NCBI GenBank assembly: GCA_029560815.1
Contig: JAKQKF010000227.1
Span: 1 to 10,610 of the forward strand
DNA length: 10,610 bases
Direction of reading: 5' to 3'
DNA from: a bacterium
GTDB lineage: Bacteria > KSB1 > UBA2214
The position numbers and the translations under genes were made by a program. Below, piece after piece: positions 1 to 10,610 of this stretch. Positions within the stretch are counted from its first letter, which is position 1, and every line of letters begins with the position of its first letter. The notes beneath the pieces were generated by a model, which saw only the letters and a program-made list of their open reading frames with translations, was not told the origin of the DNA and searched no databases.

Positions 1-1193
1 TCATTCCGGATCAGCGCGGGATCGACATAGGGCTCCTCAAAGAGGCCAAGTTTGAATTTGTAATAGAGAAGCGGACGCACCAGGCCGTCGATGACCTTCT
101 CCTCGAGCCGTCCCGAACGGACCAGCTCAACCAGAAGGGGATAGCAGTCGCCGTCAGGCAGCTCAATATTGACCCCGGCCTGAACGGCGAGCAGGGCCGC
201 TTCGCTCTTGTTCTCCGCCAGTCCGTAGCCGACCGTGTCCTCCTTGTAGTGGAGCTCGGTGATGGCGCAATAGTCGGAGACCAGCATGCCGGTGTAGCCA
301 TACTCCTCGCGCAGAACGCGCTGCAGCAGCCAGGCATTGGCGTGGGAGGGGATGCCGTCGATCTCGTTATAGGAGGGCATGATCGCGGCCGGATCGGCCT
401 GCTTGATCACCTGCCGGAAGGGATAGAAAAAGATATCGCGCAGGACGCGCTCTGAAATATTGGCCGGGCCGATATTCGAGCCGGACTCGGGTTCGCCGTG
501 ACCGGTGAAGTGCTTGAGGGTGGCGAGGAGGTGCTCCTTGTCCTTGAACTCGCCGTCTCCCTGCAATCCCTTCACCGCCGCGATGCCCATGCGGGCGGCT
601 ACATAGGGGTCTTCACCAAAGGTCTCCTCGGCACGGCCCCAGCGCGGCTCGCGCATGACATCGATGACCGGCGTCAGGGCGAGGTGGGTTCCCCGGCTGC
701 GGGCGTCAGAGGCGATGGCACTGTAGATTTCCTGGACGAGTTCGGGATCGAAGGTGGAGGCAAGGCCGATAGGCTGGGGATAGCTGGTGGCATTTTTGGC
801 GGCGAGTCCATGCAGACACTCTTCGTGAAAGATCACCGGAATGCCGAGACGGGTCTTCTCAATGAAAAATTTCTGCAGTTTGTTGCTTACCTCGGCGAGG
901 GCTTCGGGTGCGAGGCCGCCGGTGAGATCGCTCGGCCGCGCGATCTGTCCCATGCCGTGGCCGCAGTAACGTTCCATTCCGTCGGTGTCGATCTCGGTTG
1001 TGCCGGGTTTGAAGATATGCTCGCGCAATCGCCAGAGGCTGATCATCTGGGCTACCTTCTCCTCGAGAGTCATGCGGCCGAGGAGATCGGCCACCCGCTG
1101 CTCGATCGGGAGCTGCGGATTTTTATATTCAGGGTGATGCGCTGACGGGGCCGGGGCGGCGGGTGCAGCGGCGCCCCTTTTGTGACTGTCCAT
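1..1193 (-). CDS. Glycoside hydrolase family 3 beta-xylosidase/beta-glucosidase, C-terminus cut by window edge
   Basis: I translated this frame by hand. It is open for 397 codons and runs off the left edge. It is the N-terminal (beta/alpha)8 domain of GH3: the start of the domain reads RMTLEEKVAQM (40-50), the GH3 signature RWGRAEETFGEDPY is at 184-197, the substrate-binding KHF is at 227-229, and the catalytic aspartate lies in LVSDY (D307). The acid/base glutamate of GH3 sits in the second domain, outside the window. Start is ATG at 1193, preceded by a weak AGAGAG; no other in-frame ATG lies upstream before a stop near 1267. The N-terminus is an Ala/Pro-rich stretch (residues 7-17) without a hydrophobic segment, so I see no signal peptide and infer a cytoplasmic enzyme that splits short imported xylo-oligosaccharides. 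Family assignment is firm. The choice of xylosidase over glucosidase comes only from the neighbours. It has its own LacI-operator promoter, so it is a separate transcription unit in the same regulon. Confidence 0.93.
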   Translation of the reverse strand, partial: MDSHKRGAAAPAAPAPSAHHPEYKNPQLPIEQRVADLLGRMTLEEKVAQMISLWRLREHIFKPGTTEIDTDGMERYCGHGMGQIARPSDLTGGLAPEALAEVSNKLQKFFIEKTRLGIPVIFHEECLHGLAAKNATSYPQPIGLASTFDPELVQEIYSAIASDARSRGTHLALTPVIDVMREPRWGRAEETFGEDPYVAARMGIAAVKGLQGDGEFKDKEHLLATLKHFTGHGEPESGSNIGPANISERVLRDIFFYPFRQVIKQADPAAIMPSYNEIDGIPSHANAWLLQRVLREEYGYTGMLVSDYCAITELHYKEDTVGYGLAENKSEAALLAVQAGVNIELPDGDCYPLLVELVRSGRLEEKVIDGLVRPLLYYKFKLGLFEEPYVDPALIRN

Positions 1194-1255
1194 GGCGAGC
1201 TCTCTACGGTATGATGAAAGGCGAGTGGCGGACAATTTAACGGGTTTTAATTTGA

Positions 1256-1269
1256 TTGAACCGTTTCAA
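1256..1269. promoter_or_regulatory. LacI-family operator in front of the GH3 gene
   Basis: The 14-mer TTGAACCGTTTCAA is an imperfect palindrome of the form TTGAA-N-CG-N-TTCAA with the central CG typical of LacI-family operators. It overlaps the -10 element of the GH3 promoter by one base and covers the expected start point near 1262. The same motif occurs at 8281-8294 and, with one change, at 8443-8456 in front of the lacI-type gene. Repression by the regulator encoded at 8499-9524 is inferred from this repetition. Confidence 0.85.
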
Positions 1270-1380: not shown

Positions 1381-2412
1381 TCAGCCGCGGCCCTGCGCCG
1401 CCCGCACAAAGGCCGCGATGTTGGCCGAACTTACTCCGGGGGGCATCCCTCCGCCGCAGGAGAGAATGATCCGGCTGTTATCCTGGAGGGAGGCCGCGAG
1501 CTCCCGGGTGGCCGTTTCCACGCTCTCCGGTGTCCCGGCCGCCAGCACGTCGCGCGGGGGCAGGTTGCCAAGCAGGGTCACCCGGTTTCCGGTCAGCTCC
1601 TTGAGAGTGTCGAGGGTGATATCAAAACCCATGTTGAAGAGGTTGACGCCGATCTCCGGCAGGAAGGGGGCCGAAACCTTGCAGGGGGCGTCGTTGTGGA
1701 GAAATTTGACCGAGACCGGCAGGGCATAGAGTTCCTTGAAGTAGGGCAGTCCGAAGGTCCTGAACTCGTTCTCGCCGATGAAGCCGATGATATCATCGAG
1801 GAGGAAAATGCCGTCAATGGAGGGGAAGGTCTTCATCTGCAGGAGCAGCCACGACTTGAGGAAAGCGGTGATTTTTTTCATCAGGGCTTCGGCCTTTTCG
1901 GGCTCGAGCATCATCGCCATGAGGAACTCGGTTGAGCCCATCAGGTAACTGGCGATGTTGAGCGGACCGCGCGCGACGGCGAAGCGGATCTTGTGGCCGG
2001 CGCTCTCGATGGCCGGCTGGGCGAGCCTGAGCCGGTTGAGCACGAAGGGGAGGAGGCCATCAGTGGCGGGATCGGGCAGCGGCAGGTCATCGATTTCGGC
2101 CGTTGAGCGGATCACACGATGTGCGTGGGGAAATTCGTTGGCCGGGAAGTAGGTGCGCGCGCCAAAGGCGGAGGGCTCGGTGCACATGCCGAATTCGGAC
2201 CAGAATCCGGGCAAAAAGATCACTTCCGGAAAATCAGCAAGTGCCTTGAGGTTGGCTTTGAGCCAGAGCTCGTCGTTGGAAAAATAATCGAGGATGCGGA
2301 TGCCGTACCAGTTCGGCAGCCAGGGGCAGTCGATGATAAAGCCCACCGGCAGGGGATCGACGCGCTCGCCCCTGATGACCCGCTGGACAATTTCCCATTG
2401 TTGATCCGTCAT
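1381..2412 (-). CDS. Uroporphyrinogen decarboxylase (UroD) family protein, probably a methyltransferase-like member
   Basis: 343 aa, ATG at 2412 with a good AAGGAA Shine-Dalgarno 8 nt upstream; it follows the GH115-GH43 gene after 23 nt, so the two are probably co-transcribed. The C-terminal half shows the UroD/cobalamin-methyltransferase fold pattern: FLHNDAP (237-243), a GLFN-type strand (IGVNLFNMGFD, 254-264), TLLGNLPPRDVL (279-290) and LSCGGGMPPG near 317-326. In MtaA/MtbA-type methyltransferases zinc is held by a His-X-Cys pair and a distal Cys. Here H239 and C319 line up with the His and distal Cys, but the middle position is Asp (D241). It lacks the N-terminal arginine-rich motif expected of true heme-pathway HemE, so I do not call it hemE. 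No signal peptide: cytoplasmic. Substrate unknown. Position next to an alpha-glucuronidase suggests, as inference, action on the O-methyl group of 4-O-methylglucuronate; no corrinoid protein is visible in the window. Confidence 0.85.
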   Translation of the reverse strand: MTDQQWEIVQRVIRGERVDPLPVGFIIDCPWLPNWYGIRILDYFSNDELWLKANLKALADFPEVIFLPGFWSEFGMCTEPSAFGARTYFPANEFPHAHRVIRSTAEIDDLPLPDPATDGLLPFVLNRLRLAQPAIESAGHKIRFAVARGPLNIASYLMGSTEFLMAMMLEPEKAEALMKKITAFLKSWLLLQMKTFPSIDGIFLLDDIIGFIGENEFRTFGLPYFKELYALPVSVKFLHNDAPCKVSAPFLPEIGVNLFNMGFDITLDTLKELTGNRVTLLGNLPPRDVLAAGTPESVETATRELAASLQDNSRIILSCGGGMPPGVSSANIAAFVRAAQGRG

Positions 2413-2435
2413 GGCTCAATTCCTTTCCATTTGCT

Positions 2436-5400
2436 TCAGTTTTTGCTGTATTCAAACCAGTGATAGATGGCGCTGCTGCCGCTGCTCTGGCCGAGAGAGG
2501 TCGCGTGGAGGGCGAAGAATGAGCCGACAAATCCGCCGGCGATGCGGGTGCTCAGGAAAGGTCCATCGACCCGGTCGAGCAGCAGTTTCCACTTCCCTCT
2601 TTTTTCTGCATAGTAAAAAGCGTAGCTGCCGCCGGCGGCAGTGATCCTCAAACCGAACTCGCCGTTGAAGGCCGACCTTTTGAGCGGGATCGATTTGAGC
2701 AGGAGCAGCGAGCGTGCCGGCGTTTTCGAGTCGGTGGATTTCCAGAGCTGAAGCGCCGGTTTTTCCTTTTCCAGAGCGAGGCAGAGAAAGTAGTAGTGGC
2801 TCTCGTTCTGAAAGATGGTCAGGCCCGCTTTTTCGTTCTCCGCCCTGGGCTCGAAGGTCAGCGCGGTTGAGGCCGTGCAGAAGGCGTGCTGCTGGCGGTG
2901 GCCGAGAAAGGCGGGATGGCCCGTGCCCGACAGGGTCTCAGGCATCAGCCGGATCTGCAGGGTTCCGCCGCTCAATGCGTGCCACGGCTGCTGCGGCGTG
3001 CGCAGAAACTGCCAGGTGGGGGCGAGCGAGCCGGTATCGAATTCATCACGGAGAGGAAAGTGGCCGCTCGCCGGGAAGGGGGACCAGGCCGGCACTGTGG
3101 GCAGCGGGGCGGGATAGGTGGGCTGTACTTCGGCATGGTCAGGATTGATGACCGGCCAGCCCTCGTTCCAGCGCACCGGCGCCAGGAAGGTCTCACGCCC
3201 GGTATTGTAATAATTCTGCTCCACCGGAGGATAGGGCCGGCAGCCGAGAAAAACGGCCCACCAATCGCCCGCCGGCGTCTCGACAAAATCGGCATGGCCG
3301 GTGCTGGTGACCGGCGAGGGCCGGCCCGGATCGAGATGACGCTGGGTCAGAATCGGATTTTTCTGCCACGGCAGATAGGGACCGTCGATTTGCCGGCTGC
3401 GGAATACCACCACGGAGTGGTTCTCGGCCGTGCCCCCCTCGGCGGCGATGAGATAGTACCAGCCCTCCCTGCGGAAGAGGTGCGGAGCCTCGATCCAGAC
3501 CGGTTTTTGGCTCAGGTCGACCCCGCCGTTGACGAGGATCTTTTCCTCGCCGGTGACCTGCAGCTTGCCGCAGTCGAAGGCGCGCAGGCGGATGGTGCGA
3601 TGGCCGTCATAAAGGGGCTTGCCCTGCGGCGCAATGCTGTTGTAGACGAGCCAGGCTTGCCCGTCCTCGTCGAAGAAGAGAGAGGGATCGATCCCGTCCA
3701 CCTCCGGCAGCCAGACCGGATTGCTCCAGGGACCCTCCGCCGCGGGGGCGGTGACGACGAAATTGCCGCCGCGGTCGACCAGTGTGCAGACCACATAAAA
3801 GCAGCCGTCATGATGACGGATGGCCGGTGCGAAGAGCCCGCGCGAGACTCCGTGTCCTTCAAGGTCGAGCTGATCCGGACGATCCAAAACATGGCCGATC
3901 TGCTGCCAGTTGACCAGGTCCCGGCTTTTGAAGATCGGAATGCCGGGAAAATAGGCGAAAGAGGAGGTGACCAGATAATAATATTCGCCGACCCGGCAGA
4001 TGCTCGGATCGGGATAAAAACCGCTGAGGATCGGATTGTGCACAGCGGTGAGTTCTCTGCGCACAAAGGTCTCGGGCGGCCCCAGATAGGAGGCCCTGGC
4101 TTCGCCGGTTTCGACCACCAGCCGCTGCAGCACGACCCCCGGATCGACCGCCCAGAACTTGAGCACCTGCAGCCCCGCTCTGGCGATGGTATGGGTCGTG
4201 GATTTGACCACGATGTTGTCGCCCACCCATTTTTCCCAATCCATGCCCTTGTGCATATCGACGATCTGCGGGGTCTCGTCATTGAAGGAGACGGCGAAGC
4301 GCAGCCCCCCGGCGTGGTGATAATCGAGCGTCGGCGAGAGCATGGCCTTGACAGTCACTTTGCCACTGCTGAAGAGATGGAGCAGATACTCCAGGCGCGG
4401 GCTCTCCCCGCCCGGCGCTGCCGCCGGCGCGGTGACCGGAAACGGAGTCATCCCGGAGAGGGTGCGGCCCAGTTCGGGGATGTTCTGCCAATGGATCGTC
4501 CCGCTGTTCAGAGCACGGGTGTAGTGCTCCGCCTCGATGGCGACTGCGCTGCCGGACTCGAGAAAGAGCCCGGCGAGCATGGGCTCCGGCTCAGCGGGTT
4601 TGAACAGCGGTACCGTGACCACCACTATGCGGCCACCGGGGCCGCTGATGGTGAGGGGGACCCGGTGGCGCCCGGCGGGCACCTGATCCCACGCCACTGT
4701 GACGGCGATGCGTTTTTCATCCTCGATGAACGAGCGCTCATCACTCAGACGCAGCCACTTCCTGCCCGGCTGGATGGCGTAGTTGAAGGGGGCTTGCCCC
4801 CGGTTGAAGAGCTCGATATGGGTCGACTGTTTGATGAAGGGGTCGAGTTCGGGGAGCACAGCTTCGCCCTGTGAATCGGGCCACCACTGGGAGGAACCTT
4901 CGATCGCCACACCCATTTCGGCGGCGGCCGGCACACTCCTCCGCTTCACCTCCGGCATCGCGTTCGAGTCCGGCTGCTGCCAGTAGGTGTAGCCGATGTG
5001 GGTCTGGTCCATCATATGGCTCCATTTGCCCCCGGCCAGCTCGTGGTTGTAGTAAGCGCTGATCTCGGCATCCCGTGCAAAAAGCGCTTCTGCTCTTTCG
5101 GCCAGGGTGTTGGTCGCGGCGCGGCCCTGGCTGGCATAAACCCGGTTTACAGCCACCGTGTAATAGAGCTCGTAGAGGTTGGCGCAGGCGGTGACGGGGT
5201 GGAGGACGAGCTGATAAAAGGCGTCACGCTGCGCCGGCGGGAGGAGATCATTGAGGCGCTGCGCTCTCTCCGCCAGCCCTTTATAGTCGGAGACCACCTT
5301 CTCCCACTCGCCATAATTGTTGAGGCTGAAGGTGACGGGCTCGAGCAGCTCGGGCTTGCGCCGGCTGTTGAAGCGGGTATAGCCTTCGAGCAGGCCGGCG

Positions 5401-6920
5401 ATTTCGGCGGCGTGCCCGGCGCCGAACTGCCGCGCAGCCCACTGCCGGGTGTATTCGGGAATGCGCTCGGCCGGCCAGGCTTCGGGGTTCCACGCATAGT
5501 CGAGAAAGAATTCGGTCGGCAGTTCCATCGGTTTGATATCGCCGACATTTACAATCCAGATCCGCCGCGCGCCCATTTCGTAGGCGAGGTGCATCTGTTC
5601 CCAGGTGCGCGCGACCTGATTGGTATTGAGCCACTTGTAGTTGCGCGGGCCGCCGACATAGTCGAAATGGTAATAGATGCCATAGCCGCCGCTGCGCGGG
5701 GCTTCGCCCGGCCGCGGCAGCTTGCGGATGTTGCCCCAATTGTCATCGCAGAGGAGGAGGGTGACATCATCGGGCACCCGCATCCCCTTGTCATAATACT
5801 CCTGCACCTCCTTGTAGAGGGCCCAGACCTGCGGGGTTTTTGCGGCCGGTTGGCCGGTCACCTCGGCGATGATCTGGCGCTGGTCTCTGACGATGCGTTC
5901 GAGCAGGGCGATATTGGCCTCTTCGCTCATGGGTTCGTCGCCGTCGCCGCGCATGCCGATGGTGACGACGCTCTCATACGCCCCCATGCGTTCGATCCCT
6001 TCCCGCCAGAAATTTTGCAGGGTCTCCTCATTGGACTCATAGCTCCATTTTCCCCGGCCGAATCGGGCCCACTCCTCGTGGGCGCGCATCATCGGTTCAT
6101 GGTGCGAGGTGGCGATGACGATGCCGTATTCATCGGCCAGCTTGGGATTGAGGGTATCCTCGACGTAGAACATCCGGCCCCACATCGCCGGCCAGAGATA
6201 GTTGCCCTTCATGCGCAGGATCAGTTCGAAGACGTGCTCGTACATGCGGGCATTGAAACCGCCGAATTTGGCAAAGGCCCAGCCCGAGAGGGCGGGGGCT
6301 TCGTCGTTGATGAAGATGCCGCGGTATCTGACTTTGGGCTCGCCCAGGGTGTGGCGGCCGGGCGAGACATAGAGTTTCTGCTGCTGCGGGGGCGGGACGT
6401 CGCTCCAGAAATGCCAGGCCGAAACCCCGATCTGGCTGGAGAGATCGAACAGGCCGTAGATGGTGCCGCGTTTGTCGCTGCCGGCGATGACGAGGGCGCG
6501 CGGGACCCCGGGCAGGGGATTTTCAATGATCTGGGTGGCAAAACATTCCCATCGGCCCGCCAGGCCCGCCGTGTCCAGCTTTCCTTCGGAGGCCAGCCGG
6601 TCGATCAGGGGGCTGACGCCGAGCGTTCCGATGAGGATGATATCCCCGGCCGCCGGCGGAGCATCGAGTAAAAGCTCCGGAGCGGTTCCGGTCACCCGGG
6701 CCAGATCCTTCTGCAGATGGCCGGCCACGCGCAGCACGCCGGGATACTCCCGGCTGCTCGCCACCAGGAAAGCGCTGCGGCCCGGTTCGGCGAGGACGAA
6801 AGAGCCGGGCTGAGGCGTCTCGGTGACATAAGTGGCGGCAGCGGTCGATAGCCCGGCCGGCAGGAGCGCAGCCAGCGCAAGGATCAGGCAGGTACGGATT
6901 TTGGCGGGGGAGAAGATCAT
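2436..6920 (-). CDS. Secreted bifunctional GH115 alpha-glucuronidase / GH43 beta-xylosidase-arabinofuranosidase fusion
   Basis: 1494 aa from ATG 6920. Signal peptide at 1-29 (MIFSPAKIRT, hydrophobic core, AAA), so exported. Residues ~31-945 are a full-length GH115: IFINDEAP (202-209), SHHEPM (272-277), MRGDGDEP (323-330), CDDNWGN (391-397) and NVGDIKP (458-464). D206, D328, E371, N394 and N458 match, as I recall, the essential residues of characterised GH115 enzymes. SYLGPPETF (944-952) looks like a GH115 C-terminus. After about ten residues a GH43 five-bladed propeller begins (~962-1275), with all three catalytic acids: D971 (YPDPS), D1078 (GIDPS) and E1144 (WIEAP). A GH43_C2 beta-sandwich (~1287-1494) follows, as in XynB-type subfamily 11/12-like enzymes. 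Expected substrates are 4-O-methylglucuronic acid branches (GH115) and xylose or arabinose (GH43). An in-frame GTG at 6962 with GAGAGG upstream is an alternative start, but ATG 6920 has GAGG 5 nt upstream and gives the normal signal peptide. Confidence 0.95.
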   Translation of the reverse strand: MIFSPAKIRTCLILALAALLPAGLSTAAATYVTETPQPGSFVLAEPGRSAFLVASSREYPGVLRVAGHLQKDLARVTGTAPELLLDAPPAAGDIILIGTLGVSPLIDRLASEGKLDTAGLAGRWECFATQIIENPLPGVPRALVIAGSDKRGTIYGLFDLSSQIGVSAWHFWSDVPPPQQQKLYVSPGRHTLGEPKVRYRGIFINDEAPALSGWAFAKFGGFNARMYEHVFELILRMKGNYLWPAMWGRMFYVEDTLNPKLADEYGIVIATSHHEPMMRAHEEWARFGRGKWSYESNEETLQNFWREGIERMGAYESVVTIGMRGDGDEPMSEEANIALLERIVRDQRQIIAEVTGQPAAKTPQVWALYKEVQEYYDKGMRVPDDVTLLLCDDNWGNIRKLPRPGEAPRSGGYGIYYHFDYVGGPRNYKWLNTNQVARTWEQMHLAYEMGARRIWIVNVGDIKPMELPTEFFLDYAWNPEAWPAERIPEYTRQWAARQFGAGHAAEIAGLLEGYTRFNSRRKPELLEPVTFSLNNYGEWEKVVSDYKGLAERAQRLNDLLPPAQRDAFYQLVLHPVTACANLYELYYTVAVNRVYASQGRAATNTLAERAEALFARDAEISAYYNHELAGGKWSHMMDQTHIGYTYWQQPDSNAMPEVKRRSVPAAAEMGVAIEGSSQWWPDSQGEAVLPELDPFIKQSTHIELFNRGQAPFNYAIQPGRKWLRLSDERSFIEDEKRIAVTVAWDQVPAGRHRVPLTISGPGGRIVVVTVPLFKPAEPEPMLAGLFLESGSAVAIEAEHYTRALNSGTIHWQNIPELGRTLSGMTPFPVTAPAAAPGGESPRLEYLLHLFSSGKVTVKAMLSPTLDYHHAGGLRFAVSFNDETPQIVDMHKGMDWEKWVGDNIVVKSTTHTIARAGLQVLKFWAVDPGVVLQRLVVETGEARASYLGPPETFVRRELTAVHNPILSGFYPDPSICRVGEYYYLVTSSFAYFPGIPIFKSRDLVNWQQIGHVLDRPDQLDLEGHGVSRGLFAPAIRHHDGCFYVVCTLVDRGGNFVVTAPAAEGPWSNPVWLPEVDGIDPSLFFDEDGQAWLVYNSIAPQGKPLYDGHRTIRLRAFDCGKLQVTGEEKILVNGGVDLSQKPVWIEAPHLFRREGWYYLIAAEGGTAENHSVVVFRSRQIDGPYLPWQKNPILTQRHLDPGRPSPVTSTGHADFVETPAGDWWAVFLGCRPYPPVEQNYYNTGRETFLAPVRWNEGWPVINPDHAEVQPTYPAPLPTVPAWSPFPASGHFPLRDEFDTGSLAPTWQFLRTPQQPWHALSGGTLQIRLMPETLSGTGHPAFLGHRQQHAFCTASTALTFEPRAENEKAGLTIFQNESHYYFLCLALEKEKPALQLWKSTDSKTPARSLLLLKSIPLKRSAFNGEFGLRITAAGGSYAFYYAEKRGKWKLLLDRVDGPFLSTRIAGGFVGSFFALHATSLGQSSGSSAIYHWFEYSKN

Positions 6921-6984
6921 GACGGCCTCGAGGATAGTATGTTTTTCAAGCATGCGCGGCACCTGCGCCTCTCAAGCGGGAGAG

Positions 6985-7011: not shown

Positions 7012-8250
7012 TCAGGGCGCGTAGATCCGGAAATTGCCGCTGAGCTGGAGCAGGGCCAGCATATGGAGCAATCCATCATAGTAGCGGCCGGGCCCGTCGG
7101 GAACCGGCTGCTCCCAGACCGCCCGGACAAATTCAGTGCGCAGGGGGGTGGTCGCCGCCAGCGCGGCGACGCTGTTCATGGCGATCAGGCCGGGGCTGCG
7201 CTCGGCGGAGAGCGGCTTGCCGTCGAGGGTATACTGGTTGGCGTAGCGCTCCAGCCCCTCGGAGTGGAAGAAGTCGAGCAGGCGGTTGGACTGTTCGATG
7301 GCCCATTCATCGCGGGCAAACCAGATCCAGTCGACGGCGACATTCATCGCCGTGCGCCAGGCGTCGAAGCGGAAGGCGTCATGGCCGCCACCCCAGGGGG
7401 CGTCGGTGGCGGTGCCGTCAAAGTTTGCATAGTCTGGGGTGAGGCCGGTCCCGGGATGGGCCGCTTTTTTGAGAAATGCGCGGCTGATGATTGCAGCTTC
7501 GCGCCAGAATTCGTTCTCCTTGTCCGCCCAGCGCGCCCAGAGCTCGTAATAGTGGGGCAGATGATAGGAGGGATCGGTAAAGCCATCGGCCTCCCCGTTG
7601 GGCACAAAGACCACCTGTTTATGCTCACGGCTGAACATGTTGGTGATGACCGCCTGGAGATCGGATTCGGGCTCCTTGCTGAGCATGGCGTCGAGGATGG
7701 CCTGGGCTTCAGCCCGGTAGTTGAGAATGCCGGGGCCGTCGCCCCAGCGGTGGGAGGCGAAGAAAAGGGCGGTGACGATCCACTCCTCGCCGTCGGAGGC
7801 GGCGCTGACGCTGAGCTTTTCGCCTTCCGGCGTGCAGTGCCAGGCGAAAAAGCCCTTGCTCGGCCCCTCCTGGTGCTGCATAAAGGTTTTGGCCCATCTC
7901 CAGAGGCGGTCGAACTCGGCCTTCTTGTCCAGCTGCACAGCGATCATCATGCCGTAGGAGATGCCCTCGGTGCGCACATCGTTGTGGAGGATATCCTCAA
8001 TATAGGCCATATCGGGACCGGCGGGATAGCAGATGCGCTGGGTGCTGTCGTCGCCGTAAAAGAGCTGCTGAAAAGCGTTTTCGATTCGCTCCTGGACGAG
8101 GTTCTGCTCGATGCCGAGCAGACCGGAGAGAAGATTCGGGTAGAGGCCGGAGGCCCCGGCGCCCTGACGTGGCAATGGATGGCGGCAGGAGAGGAGGAGG
8201 GCGAGGCAGAGCAGGCAAAGAAGCGGAGTGGAACGACTCGTCTTTTTCAT
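7012..8250 (-). CDS. GH8 lipoprotein, probable reducing-end xylose-releasing exo-oligoxylanase or xylanase
   Basis: 412 aa from ATG 8250, which has GAGG 5 nt upstream; the TTG one codon earlier is too close to that site. The N-terminus is a lipoprotein signal: KK, a Leu/Cys-rich core and the lipobox LLSC with C22 as the lipidated residue, so the enzyme is membrane-anchored outside the cytoplasm. The rest is a GH8 (alpha/alpha)6 barrel of usual length. VRTEGISYGMM carries the catalytic acid E95, ASDGEEW gives D153, and FRFDAWRTAMNVAVDW gives D296, the position of the catalytic base in the Rex-type (reducing-end xylose-releasing, EC 3.2.1.156) subgroup. PWGGGHDAFRFDAWR resembles Rex enzymes more than GH8 cellulases or chitosanases, but exo versus endo action depends on a loop I cannot judge. 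First gene of the minus-strand operon, expressed from a LacI-operator promoter 37 nt upstream. Confidence 0.92.
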   Translation of the reverse strand: MKKTSRSTPLLCLLCLALLLSCRHPLPRQGAGASGLYPNLLSGLLGIEQNLVQERIENAFQQLFYGDDSTQRICYPAGPDMAYIEDILHNDVRTEGISYGMMIAVQLDKKAEFDRLWRWAKTFMQHQEGPSKGFFAWHCTPEGEKLSVSAASDGEEWIVTALFFASHRWGDGPGILNYRAEAQAILDAMLSKEPESDLQAVITNMFSREHKQVVFVPNGEADGFTDPSYHLPHYYELWARWADKENEFWREAAIISRAFLKKAAHPGTGLTPDYANFDGTATDAPWGGGHDAFRFDAWRTAMNVAVDWIWFARDEWAIEQSNRLLDFFHSEGLERYANQYTLDGKPLSAERSPGLIAMNSVAALAATTPLRTEFVRAVWEQPVPDGPGRYYDGLLHMLALLQLSGNFRIYAP

Positions 8251-8278
8251 CAACGCCTCGCAAAAAGAGTGTTAAATA

Positions 8279-8296
8279 ATTTGAACCGATTCAAAT
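8279..8296. promoter_or_regulatory. LacI-family operator in front of the GH8 operon
   Basis: ATTTGAACCGATTCAAAT is an 18-bp palindrome with a central CG and only the two bases flanking it not symmetrical. It overlaps the -10 element (8294-8299) and the expected start point (~8287) of the GH8 promoter, a classical place for repression. It shares TTGAACCG-TTCAA with the sites at 1256 and 8441. Confidence 0.87.
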
Positions 8297-8322: not shown

Positions 8323-8350
8323 GCAAAAAACAAACCGCTGTGCGCGCAGG

Positions 8351-8370
8351 ACCCCGGCCATGCCCGGGGT
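8351..8370. promoter_or_regulatory. 20-bp dyad midway between two divergent promoters
   Basis: ACCCCGG (8351-8357) and CCGGGGT (8364-8370) are perfect 7-bp arms separated by 6 bp. The dyad lies upstream of both -35 elements (8317-8322 leftward and 8402-8407 rightward), so neither promoter transcribes it. This favours a protein-binding site for a second regulator over a terminator. Its centre is about 73 bp upstream of the GH8 start point and about 77 bp upstream of the regulator's. No factor can be named. Confidence 0.45.
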
Positions 8371-8401
8371 GTAATATTCCTGAAAACAGGGAAGAAAGTA
8401 G

Positions 8402-8430
8402 TTGTTTTTACACTTTAAAAAAATTATATT
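8402..8430 (+). promoter_or_regulatory. Likely promoter of the LacI-type gene
   Basis: TTGTTT (8402-8407), 17 bp, TATATT (8425-8430) in an A/T-rich stretch; the expected start is near 8437, just before the operator at 8441-8458. The -35 matches the consensus only in TTG, so it is weaker than the GH8 and GH3 promoters, as is usual for a regulator gene. Confidence 0.55.
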
Positions 8431-8440
8431 CATCAATAAA

Positions 8441-8458
8441 AATCGAACCGTTTCAATT
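8441..8458. promoter_or_regulatory. LacI-family operator at the regulator's own promoter
   Basis: AATCGAACCGTTTCAATT: identical to the GH3 operator over 14 bases except one T-to-C (TCGAACCGTTTCAA at 8443-8456). It sits directly downstream of the predicted start point and 41 bp before the start codon, consistent with autorepression. The mismatch may make it weaker than the two target sites. Confidence 0.8.
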
Positions 8459-8498
8459 CCTGGGATTGAGTCATGCGGCCGCAGAGGCCGGGGATGAT

Positions 8499-9524
8499 AT
8501 GAAAAGAATAACCATAGAGGATGTTGCCCTCAAGGCCGGGGTTTCCAAGGGCACGGTCTCGGCTGTACTCAACGGCAAGAATTCCGTCAAGCCGCATACG
8601 CGCGAACGCATTCTCGATGTCATGAAGGAACTTAATTTCCGCCCGCGCGGCATGGCCCGGAACCTGAAAAACGGCAGCGAAGACCGTTCCATCGGCATCA
8701 TCATCAAGGATTTGAACTATCCTTTCTATACCTCGATCGCCACCGGCGTGCGTGAATATGCCATCCAGCGGGGTTATCAGGTCATCGTCACCAGTTCGGA
8801 AAACGACCACGAGTGCGAAAAAAAGTTCACCCATCTTTTCTCGACCAAGGATATCAAGGGCGCCATCATTGCCCCGATTGTCGAGGGCCAGGCGGAGATC
8901 GAACATCTTTTCAAGCTGAAAATGATCAACTACCCCTTTGTCCTGCTCGAGGAGGTCAAGGGCATTCAGGCCAATGCGGTGGTCATCGATAACCTCAAGG
9001 CCATTCGTCAGGCGGTCAAATACCTCATTGATGGCGGTCACCGCCGCATTGTACATTTTGCCGGCCCCCCGCAATCCTCCCATACCCAGGAACGCATTGA
9101 GGGTTTCCGCTATGCTTTCAGCGAGAGCACGCTCGCTTTCACCGGGGAGATGATCATTTCGATCGGTTCGCGGCATGAGGAGAGCTATCGCAATACGCTC
9201 ACCTGGTTCAAAAGCCTGGCGAGGGCGGACTATCCTACCGCGATACTCTGCTTCAATGACCAGCAGGCGCTGGCGGTGATGTCGGCCCTGCGCGAGCTCA
9301 ATATCCGTGTACCTGATGATATCTCGGTCATCGGCAACGATGACATCGATTACGCCCAGCTCTATCCGGTGCCGTTGACGACAATCCGCGCGCCGCAAAA
9401 GGAGATCGGCCGACGCGCCGCGGAGATCCTTATCCGCAATATCGAATCCCCGGTCCTGCTGCCGCAGGAGCGGGTTCTGCTCGAGACGGAGCTGATCGTC
9501 CGGGACTCTTCGCGAACCCTCTAA
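8499..9524 (+). CDS. LacI-family transcriptional regulator of the xylan locus
   Basis: 341 aa, usual LacI/GalR length. The start is ATG 8499, chosen because ITIEDVALKAGVSKGTVSAV must begin at residue 4; the open frame extends upstream to 8340 but that part covers the promoter and operator and is not coding. Residues 1-47 are the helix-turn-helix (recognition helix SKGTVSAVLN), and RPRGMARNLK (47-56) is the hinge helix whose Leu inserts at a central CG step, which matches the CG in the operators. SIGIIIKDLNYPFY begins the periplasmic-binding-protein-like sensor domain (~62-335), with ILCFNDQQALAVM and ISVIGNDDIDYAQ as typical family blocks. The probable effector is a xylan-derived sugar, not readable from sequence. 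Divergent from the GH8 operon; three matching operators in the window point to control of GH8, GH3 and itself. Confidence 0.95.
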   Translation: MKRITIEDVALKAGVSKGTVSAVLNGKNSVKPHTRERILDVMKELNFRPRGMARNLKNGSEDRSIGIIIKDLNYPFYTSIATGVREYAIQRGYQVIVTSSENDHECEKKFTHLFSTKDIKGAIIAPIVEGQAEIEHLFKLKMINYPFVLLEEVKGIQANAVVIDNLKAIRQAVKYLIDGGHRRIVHFAGPPQSSHTQERIEGFRYAFSESTLAFTGEMIISIGSRHEESYRNTLTWFKSLARADYPTAILCFNDQQALAVMSALRELNIRVPDDISVIGNDDIDYAQLYPVPLTTIRAPQKEIGRRAAEILIRNIESPVLLPQERVLLETELIVRDSSRTL

Positions 9525-9533
9525 ACCTCCCCC

Positions 9534-9586
9534 TGCCGGCCGCACCAGGCCGCCCTCCAGCGAGAACATCGTCAGTGCGGCCGGTA
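9534..9586 (+). terminator. Long stem-loop after the LacI-type gene, possible terminator or attenuator
   Basis: CCGGCCGCAC (9536-9545) and GTGCGGCCGG (9575-9584) are perfect 10-bp inverted repeats, extendable by a G-U and a U-A pair to 12 bp, around a 29-nt loop. The stem begins 10 nt after the regulator's stop. It is not followed by a U-tract, so Rho-independent termination is unproven; an attenuator or a DNA-level site is also possible. Confidence 0.45.
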
Positions 9587-9598
9587 TTCATATCACCC

Positions 9599-9613
9599 GG
9601 GGCGCAGTGCCCC
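9599..9613 (+). other. Short leader hairpin before the CotH-family gene
   Basis: GGGGC (9599-9603) pairs with GCCCC (9609-9613), extendable by a G-U pair. It ends 7 nt before the AGGAA Shine-Dalgarno (9620-9624). It is followed by AATTTC, too few U residues for a firm terminator. It may affect translation initiation of the gene at 9631 or end transcripts from the regulator. Confidence 0.35.
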
Positions 9614-9630
9614 AATTTCAGGAACAGATC

Positions 9631-10610
9631 ATGCCGCGATTCGAGATCAACAGAACCCTCCCCGCCGGGGCCGGCCTATTGGCGGGGCGAAGGCTGCACC
9701 GGGCTCTCCTGCTCTTTTTTTTACTGTCCGGTCTGCACTCCCTGGCGGCCCAGACCACGGGAGTGGTGCTGCGGGATTCCAATCTGCCCATCCTCATCAT
9801 CGATACCGGCGGGAGGGAGATCGTCGACCTGGTCCGCATCCGCGCCAGCATGAAGATCATCTATAACGGCCAGGGCAAACGCAACGCCATCACCGATCCC
9901 CCCAACAACTATGACGGCCTGATCGATATCGAGCTGCGTGGCAGCTCCTCCATGGCCTATCCCAAGAAGGGCTTCCGCCTCGAGACGGTCACCTCTTCCG
10001 GCGACAACCGCAACGTCTCCCTGCTCGGCATGCCGAAGGAGAATGACTGGATCCTCTACGCCTCGTACGACGATCAGTCGCTGATGCGCAATACCCTCGC
10101 CTACCGCATCTCCAACGAGATCGGCCGTTACGCCCCCCGCGTCAAGTACTGCGAGCTGGTGCTCAACAACAACTATCGCGGGGTCTATCTCTTCATGGAA
10201 AAGATCAAGCAGGACAAGAACCGGGTCAACGTCACAGAGCTGGAGAGCGGCGATGTGAGCGGAGACGCGGTCACCGGCGGCTATATCTGGAAATTCGACA
10301 AGGAGGAGGGTGAGCAGACGGCCGGGTGGGTCTCCATGCAAGGGCTGTACTATCAATATCACGATCCCAAGGCGGACGATCTGGTCGCCGCCCAGAAGAA
10401 CTATCTGAGGGGGGTGATGAACGTCTTTGAGTCGGTTATGCTCATGCCCAACCGCGGCGATACCACGTTCGGCTATCCCCGCTACATCGACGTCGCCTCC
10501 TTCGTTGACCACTTCATCCTCAATGAATTCTGTAAAAACATCGACGCCTACCGCATCAGCTTTTTCATGCACAAAGACCGCGACAGCAAAGGGGGCAAGC
10601 TCATCGCTGG
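9631..10610 (+). CDS. Secreted CotH-kinase family protein, C-terminus cut by window edge
   Basis: I translated 326 codons by hand; the frame is open to the right edge. Start ATG 9631 has AGGAA 6 nt upstream. Residues 1-40 form a long signal peptide: a basic n-region with GRRLHR, then ALLLFFLLSGL and LAA before Q41. The mature part has the CotH block order: ELRGSSSMAYPKKGFRLE (101-118), NDWILYASYDDQSLMRNTLA (138-157), ELVLNNNYRGVYLFMEKI (175-192), GGYIWKFDK (216-224) and FILNEFCKNIDAYRISFFMH (295-314), the last with the N-x-D pair of the kinase-like active site. Bacillus CotH phosphorylates spore-coat proteins; in non-spore-formers these exported proteins have mostly unknown targets. No copy of the LacI operator precedes it, so membership in the xylan regulon is not supported; it could be read through from the regulator gene. 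Confidence 0.9.
   Translation, partial: MPRFEINRTLPAGAGLLAGRRLHRALLLFFLLSGLHSLAAQTTGVVLRDSNLPILIIDTGGREIVDLVRIRASMKIIYNGQGKRNAITDPPNNYDGLIDIELRGSSSMAYPKKGFRLETVTSSGDNRNVSLLGMPKENDWILYASYDDQSLMRNTLAYRISNEIGRYAPRVKYCELVLNNNYRGVYLFMEKIKQDKNRVNVTELESGDVSGDAVTGGYIWKFDKEEGEQTAGWVSMQGLYYQYHDPKADDLVAAQKNYLRGVMNVFESVMLMPNRGDTTFGYPRYIDVASFVDHFILNEFCKNIDAYRISFFMHKDRDSKGGKLIA

Follow-up and report, generated by a model that had tools for sequence, protein, structure and literature searches.

The UroD superfamily includes aromatic O-demethylases as well as CdmB, with zinc present in some members only (PMC13222342), and its member MtoB is described in PMC8630106. A preprint survey (PMC10418091) sorts the methyltransferases of the superfamily by metal site: S-methyltransferases carry a His-Cys-Cys site, while in O-methyltransferases one or both cysteines are replaced by carboxylates or non-ligands. 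The subject here is a UroD-type gene at 1381..2412 (minus strand) of a 10,610-nt stretch of DNA, referred to as the window, from a bacterium of the KSB1 lineage (JAKQKF010000227.1). Its product is likely the substrate-side methyltransferase (MT1) of a corrinoid-dependent O-demethylase that would take the methyl group from 4-O-methyl-D-glucuronate, free or on a short aldouronate, and deliver it to tetrahydrofolate (THF) or homocysteine.

4-O-methylglucuronate is a main side group of hardwood xylan, and its methyl groups therefore form a large one-carbon pool. Searched by title and beginning of abstract, the open literature (subscription papers lying outside the scope) yielded no B12-dependent sugar demethylation and no pathway for removing the methyl group of 4-O-methylglucuronate. 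The first-pass annotation of the window had proposed this removal as the role of the gene and appears right in outline, given the linkage to glycoside hydrolase (GH) families GH115 and GH67 and the corrinoid partners found in relatives; the substrate is a prediction. On the features described below, the subfamily is best classed with the corrinoid O-demethylases of the UroD superfamily, its proposed substrate being new and a sugar.

The UroD-fold protein and its metal site

The gene is an intact open reading frame (ORF) of 343 aa, typed as UroD in the first-pass annotation and confirmed by a Pfam URO-D match (3e-35, residues 9-340). It scores 122.3 bits on PF01208 (UroD superfamily; gathering score 23.9), and structure matches agree. 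The family is large, with 7993 of 8000 scored candidates at E<=1e-3. Within it, the earlier wording “UroD/methyltransferase-like” holds as a resemblance and fails as formal membership: MtaA/CmuA-type rows are the best in NCBIfam, yet TIGR01463 (MtaA/CmuA) gives 61.4 of the 235.4 bits needed, and this identity was rejected. HemE was likewise rejected, with 48.8 of 302.95 bits on TIGR01464 (hemE) and a separate place in the tree. A sequence search among solved structures matched HemE and reached 4ay7 at E 0.023 only; Foldseek ranked HemE structures first, and VIA-align gave 4ay7, an MtaA/MtbA-type protein, as the closest solved structure.

The tree comprises 52 rows (21 of the 81 subfamily members, 8 proteins of a second UroD type, UROD2, and 23 of 39 other ORFs; rows of at most 280 aa after trimming were left out). 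The subfamily forms a clade (100/99) apart from a clade (100/100) of six HemE proteins from related genomes, all of which pass the hemE cut-off. A grouping with genuine HemE, named beforehand as the phylogenetic result that would speak against the proposed role, is thus not what the tree gives. Branches are long, and the node that joins the L109 and L111 rows to the subfamily is not secure (L-numbers denote loci and G-numbers genomes).

The candidate metal-site residues are H239, D241, and C319. The His239-Asn240-Asp241 motif occurs in 81/81 subfamily members, as does Gly321, and Cys319 in 79/81. UROD2 proteins have His-x-Cys and a cysteine at 321 (8/8), while HemE proteins have neither (6/6). 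The His-x-Cys … Cys site of MtaA/MtbA-type S-methyltransferases is therefore absent throughout the subfamily. A carboxylate in place of a cysteine, as in the corrinoid O-demethylases of the superfamily, is present as Asp241 in every member; this holds at the level of residues, the pairing of Asp241 with the zinc cysteine being a judgement. That pairing comes from an ungapped alignment, preferred because the spacing from the histidine to the next Gly-Val is equal and MAFFT agrees. By the PMC10418091 scheme, the residues place the motif in the O-methyltransferase kind. The first-pass annotation had pointed to UroD-fold proteins of the MtaA/MtbA type; because His-Asn-Asp replaces His-x-Cys, the O-demethylases of the superfamily are the better comparison. 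Elsewhere in the family, H-S-D or H-T-D stands at this position in the UroD paralogues of L106, L107, L109, L111, L112, and L114, which may O-demethylate other methoxyl compounds.

Genes linked to the subfamily in relatives

The comparison took the best 80 of 288 loci with close homologues; flanks extend 10 kb at most, and many of the contigs are short. A six-frame count finds the UroD gene in 80/80 and an ORF count in 76/80, overlapping antisense ORFs winning in the remainder; neighbours were detected at E<=1e-15 with profiles built from the loci themselves. The taxa include Bacteroidetes, Ignavibacteria, KSB1, Calditrichaeota, Spirochaetes, Fibrobacteres, Lentisphaerae, Opitutales, and Neomarinimicrobiota. 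Within 10 kb, GH115 is found in 24 loci, GH67 in 10, and either in 33; GH115, GH67, GH43, or GH8 is found in 40/80, and 43/80 have a xylan gene when GH3 and XylA-like genes are added (the XylA-like profile is unconfirmed by Pfam). GH10 was excluded from these counts because its home-made profile also matched secretion-tail domains; the figures for GH115 and GH67 do not depend on it. GH115 lies on the same strand as UroD in 24/24 loci and upstream in 23, and GH43, where present, is always upstream on the UroD strand (22/22). Counting the xylan genes together with parts of the corrinoid module described below, 59/80 loci have one or the other and 21 have neither, and the fraction runs by identity band from 17/19 (>=74%) and 31/37 (70-73%) to 11/24 (<70%).

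Linkage to GH115/GH67, which the first-pass annotation had set as a test with homologues lying mostly elsewhere counting as refutation, did not refute the proposal; it was also examined in 32 genomes chosen by the author from the 80, mainly for long flanks, and hence leaning to better contigs and higher identity. The subfamily gene lies within 20 kb of GH115/GH67 in 28/32 of these, against 7/118 other UroD rows of the same genomes (among the 150 of 203 matches listed), and 5 of the 7 are UROD2 genes inside the subfamily's own cluster. Conversely, 23 of 34 GH115 matches over cut-off are within 20 kb of a subfamily gene. The phylum of G018 (the KSB1 genome of L030; 82 genomes, including G001) was surveyed without choosing genomes: the subfamily is present at >=66% identity in 22, and GH115 occurs in 17/22 of these versus 14/60 others. 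The identity limits of this survey (66% and 53%) were set after the tables were seen and left out 5 genomes with METR (the folate-side methyltransferase described below) at 34-39% and 10 genomes with only lower-identity UroD (54-57% or 36-37%).

Corrinoid partners accompany the gene in many relatives. A corrinoid protein is found in 33 of the 80 loci, a homocysteine S-methyltransferase (SMT) in 29, a MetH-activation-domain protein (ACT) in 29, and any of these in 34. The corrinoid-protein gene is upstream of UroD in 33/33 loci and on the same strand in 32, the usual order being corrinoid protein, SMT, ACT, UroD. Pfam, run on one member each, finds B12-binding_2 and B12-binding, S-methyl_trans, and Met_synt_B12, respectively. 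The conserved residues include DLHDIG in the corrinoid protein, three cysteines in SMT, and R-x-S-P-G-Y in ACT, which we take to be cobalamin, zinc, and S-adenosylmethionine motifs. Judged by these domains, the module is a split methionine synthase with UroD in the place of the folate part. In 22/32 genomes, PF02965 is also carried by frames of at least 1100 aa, likely MetH itself. The separate ACT proteins (e.g., L013 7678) share a C-terminal Cys226, Cys229, and Cys234 that is, to our knowledge, unfamiliar from MetH and is perhaps an iron-sulfur site. A second UroD gene, UROD2, lies downstream in 11 loci (L005, L007, L009, L014, L023, L024, L027, L028, L039, L045, and L056); the 8 full-length copies compared have a His-x-Cys … Cys site, and UROD2 is perhaps thiol-directed.

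A second outfit would lead to THF. METR, a pterin-binding protein of the methyl-THF:corrinoid methyltransferase type, is present in 15 of 33 searched genomes without a local module versus 4/34 with any module part; the 33 are drawn from 46 such genomes, those of L059, L060, L063, L065-L069, L073, L075, L076, L078, and L079 being left out. In L122-L125 and L128-L130, METR is accompanied by MetV, MetF, and a corrinoid protein; L131 has MetF and a corrinoid protein beside it, and L119 and L127 the corrinoid protein alone. MetV (L122, L124, L128-L130) and MetF (L124, L129-L131) were identified by eye from how their sequences begin, and Pfam was applied to both proteins of L125 and to MetF of L122 and L128. 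METR adjoins FolD and formate-THF ligase in L123, is accompanied by FolD, a GntR regulator, a corrinoid protein, and SMT in L120, and directly follows the UroD gene in L052. In L123, FolD and METR are separated by the gene (8942-10042) of a GntR regulator that has a LacI-type sugar-binding domain, which hints at sugar control of one-carbon (C1) genes. The window's four best phylum matches, G001, G111, G002, and G035 (92, 80, 79, and 80% identity), all have METR (a partial match in G111), while none was found in the fifth, G013. Across the 82 phylum genomes, 11 have both METR and the subfamily, 11 the subfamily only, 6 METR only (one partial), and 54 neither (p 2.4e-4).

Five deeper relatives, UroD proteins at 34-37% identity that keep the H-N-D motif (L134-L138), lie beside a RACo-type activase (Pfam, 5/5), a corrinoid protein, and a protein scoring 74-88 bits on the ACT profile. 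L134 and L136 further have a MetF-MetV protein, METR, a short-chain dehydrogenase/reductase (SDR), and UxuA; L138, on a cut contig, has SDR, and L137 has SMT in the place of METR. The L135 stretch also contains GH115 and GH43, together with a ribulokinase-type kinase and a weak match to the XylA profile; none of MetF, METR, SDR, and UxuA was seen on it. The corrinoid protein, corrinoid activase, and methyl-THF-type enzyme that the first-pass annotation sought near the gene are thus found in the flanks of relatives, while the window contains no corrinoid gene. A linked corrinoid protein, as expected beside the MT1 of an O-demethylase, occurs in 33/80 loci, and a linked acceptor-side methyltransferase (MT2, or MTII) or activase appears as SMT in 29/80, as METR beside the L052 copy, and as RACo in the five deeper loci.

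Genes of glucuronate use recur near the gene as well. In the main subfamily, UxuA or SDR genes are near 18/80 loci; the SDR of L027 passes the D-mannonate oxidoreductase cut-off (365.8 bits, cut-off 281), and UxuA of L039 passes its own. The bacterial glucuronate route runs through fructuronate and mannonate. A glucuronate route plus a methyl-removing gene set is, on these annotations, what 4-O-methylglucuronate needs. A major facilitator superfamily gene lies within 10 kb in 14/80 loci, its D-galactonate-type match being below cut-off. Two side observations concern the same flanks. A PF07470 (GH88-type) gene is near UroD in 12 loci (L007, L010, L017, L018, L020-L022, L029, L033, L039, L045, and L064). 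In L066-L069 and L073 (63-64% identity; Bacteroidales/Bacteroidota), the gene stands with DUF6807 and oxidoreductase genes, with no GH115, GH67, GH43, GH8, or module gene, and these homologues probably act on another substrate.

Layout of the window and predicted control

Six genes were typed by ORF calling and Pfam. The UroD ATG begins 23 nt after the stop of its upstream neighbour, the spacer (2413..2435, minus strand) containing the ribosome-binding-like GGAAAGGA, picked out by eye. The spacing given in the first-pass annotation is correct, while the plain GH115 it described is a 1508-aa GH115 alpha-glucuronidase fused to GH43 (with GH43_C2; 2436..6962, minus strand). The fusion is upstream of UroD together with a GH8 enzyme (7012..8253, minus strand), the first gene of the proposed operon; downstream lies the N-terminal part of a GH3 enzyme, truncated by the window end (3..1235, minus strand). 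A LacI-family regulator is divergent (8499..9524, plus strand; its frame spans 8340-9524, and the start at 8499 was chosen by the author just ahead of the LacI domain at frame residue 58), and a CotH protein begins at 9607 (plus strand). The nearest relative (L001, 2-4360) likewise has GH115 and GH43 fused, and both fusion proteins begin, by eye, with a signal-like N-terminus; long GH115 frames of 1368 and 1742 aa occur in G035 and G112.

The LacI-type operator-like palindrome TTGAA-N-CG-N-TTCAA gives 6 matches in the window (3 sites, both strands) versus 0.52 expected from shuffles. The sites lie before GH8 (8281..8294), before the LacI gene (8443..8456), and before GH3 (1256..1269), the last touching a promoter-like site (1297-1269, minus strand). 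Of the 11 relatives where the LacI gene was seen, 9 (L002, L004, L006, L017, L044, L048, L049, L053, and L064) have the palindrome, with at most one mismatch, within ~210 nt of that gene, and L008 and L010 do not; chance expectation was counted for the window only. It also stands behind the UroD gene in L001, as in the window. Because of these positions, UroD is most simply read as the last gene of a predicted LacI-controlled GH8 / GH115-GH43 / UroD unit, and the three sites suggest a small xylan regulon.

Proposed reaction, alternatives, and known systems

The sequences show the family, the linkage, the partner genes in relatives, the metal-site residues, and the operator-like sites. From them we infer every reaction of the pathway, including substrate, direction, metal, import, and the acceptor of the window's organism. 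GH115 would free 4-O-methylglucuronic acid, which would be imported. A metal of the UroD protein, probably zinc on His239/Asp241 and perhaps Cys319, would activate the ether oxygen, and the methyl group would pass to the Co(I) of a small corrinoid protein. METR would take the methyl group from the corrinoid in the window's closest relatives, and MetVF, FolD, and formate-THF ligase could then oxidize it; in other genomes, homocysteine S-methyltransferase would take it instead, yielding methionine. RACo or the ACT protein would re-reduce the corrinoid, and the leftover glucuronate would enter the fructuronate/mannonate route. For the organism of the window, THF is the probable acceptor. More broadly, it is likely that several phyla have a dedicated cobalamin O-demethylase for this wood-xylan methyl sugar acid, with interchangeable outfits that would send the methyl group to THF for oxidation or, through a split methionine synthase, to homocysteine, turning wood methyl into methionine.

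Several findings weigh against this proposal. Corrinoid, MT2, and activase genes are all absent from the window; in the nearest genome, G001, METR lies on a 3.6-kb contig and is not followed by the cluster genes, and the free corrinoid protein (L117), which reaches 55% identity to the module type, is unlinked. METR is missing from 11/22 subfamily genomes of the phylum. Neither GH115 nor GH67 is in the flanks of 47/80 loci, and 4/32 chosen genomes have neither within 20 kb on the same contig. Below 70% identity the substrate may be a different one: GH115/GH67 is present in only 6/24 loci, and some Bacteroidales copies adjoin DUF6807 and oxidoreductase genes instead. At the metal site, the profile aligner (versus UROD2) paired Cys244, via a gap, with the zinc cysteine rather than Asp241; the canonical second cysteine is Gly321 here, Cys319 being a candidate replacement; and H-S-D/H-T-D occurs in 6/33 other UroD paralogues, so the substrate cannot be read from HxD alone. 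In the deeper relatives, the ACT-like protein has no Pfam match where tested, and the L134 SDR is typed as glucose 1-dehydrogenase (224.9 bits, cut-off 215), not mannonate oxidoreductase.

The same chemistry might be directed at a methoxylated aromatic of the ferulate type freed from xylan, as with MtvB/OdmB. The superfamily O-demethylases named in PMC13222342 act on methoxylated aromatics, and Pfam-Esterase genes adjoin 7 loci (Pfam run on one). The linked genes are nevertheless alpha-glucuronidases (33/80) and UxuA/SDR (18/80), no search for aromatic-acid genes having been made, and an aromatic substrate is considered improbable. There is a similarly small chance that the enzyme demethylates another methyl sugar, or a methylated aldouronate oligosaccharide and not the free sugar: 18/24 loci below 70% identity have no GH115, GH67, GH43, or GH8 nearby, whereas at >=70% one of these is present in 34/56 loci, and the window has three.

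Other alternatives would change the reaction itself. The best structural match and the best NCBIfam rows, being of MtaA/MtbA or MtaA/CmuA type, would suit an MT2 that passes a corrinoid methyl group to a thiol. This role is very unlikely, since the thiol-type site is absent, the MtaA/CmuA cut-off is missed, and dedicated acceptor-type enzymes already stand beside UroD in many loci (SMT 29/80); the systematic search for alternative MT1 genes covered UROD2 (found in 11 loci). HemE or another decarboxylase, which the Pfam name and the Foldseek ranking would favor, is scarcely credible given the missed cut-off, the clade apart from six HemE that pass it, and separate HemE-like rows of 417-485 bits in 17/32 genomes (among the 150 of 203 matches listed).

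If the proposed O-demethylase is real, a sugar ether would be cleaved by B12 chemistry, glycan breakdown would be linked with methionine or C1 metabolism, and the label “uroporphyrinogen decarboxylase” would be wrong for many genes annotated near glycoside hydrolases. It would also help explain the fate of a common methyl group of wood when wood is digested.

Among known systems, the subfamily resembles MtvB, OdmB, VdmB, and MtoB as a UroD-fold MT1 with a corrinoid protein, a methyl-H4folate enzyme, and an activase (PMC13222342 and PMC8630106). Those enzymes act on methoxylated aromatics, whereas the subfamily sits in xylan/glucuronate operons and has one outfit ending in homocysteine. CdmB is likewise a UroD-superfamily MT1 with a corrinoid protein and MTII, but uses a haloalkane (chloromethane) and has no zinc (PMC13222342). 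MtaA, MtbA, and Mlp (PMC10418091) share the UroD fold and corrinoid methyl transfer, with 4ay7 as the closest solved structure; their His-Cys-Cys site serves sulfur/selenium, in contrast to His-Asn-Asp here. Removal of a methyl ether from a sugar during polysaccharide use is also described for 6-O-methyl-D-galactose in marine bacteria (PMC10033563), although that cytochrome P450 route is oxidative, yields formaldehyde, and employs unrelated proteins. Finally, SMT, the corrinoid protein, and ACT correspond to the homocysteine, corrinoid, and activation parts of MetH as separate genes, with the difference that the UroD gene holds the operon place of the methyl-THF part.
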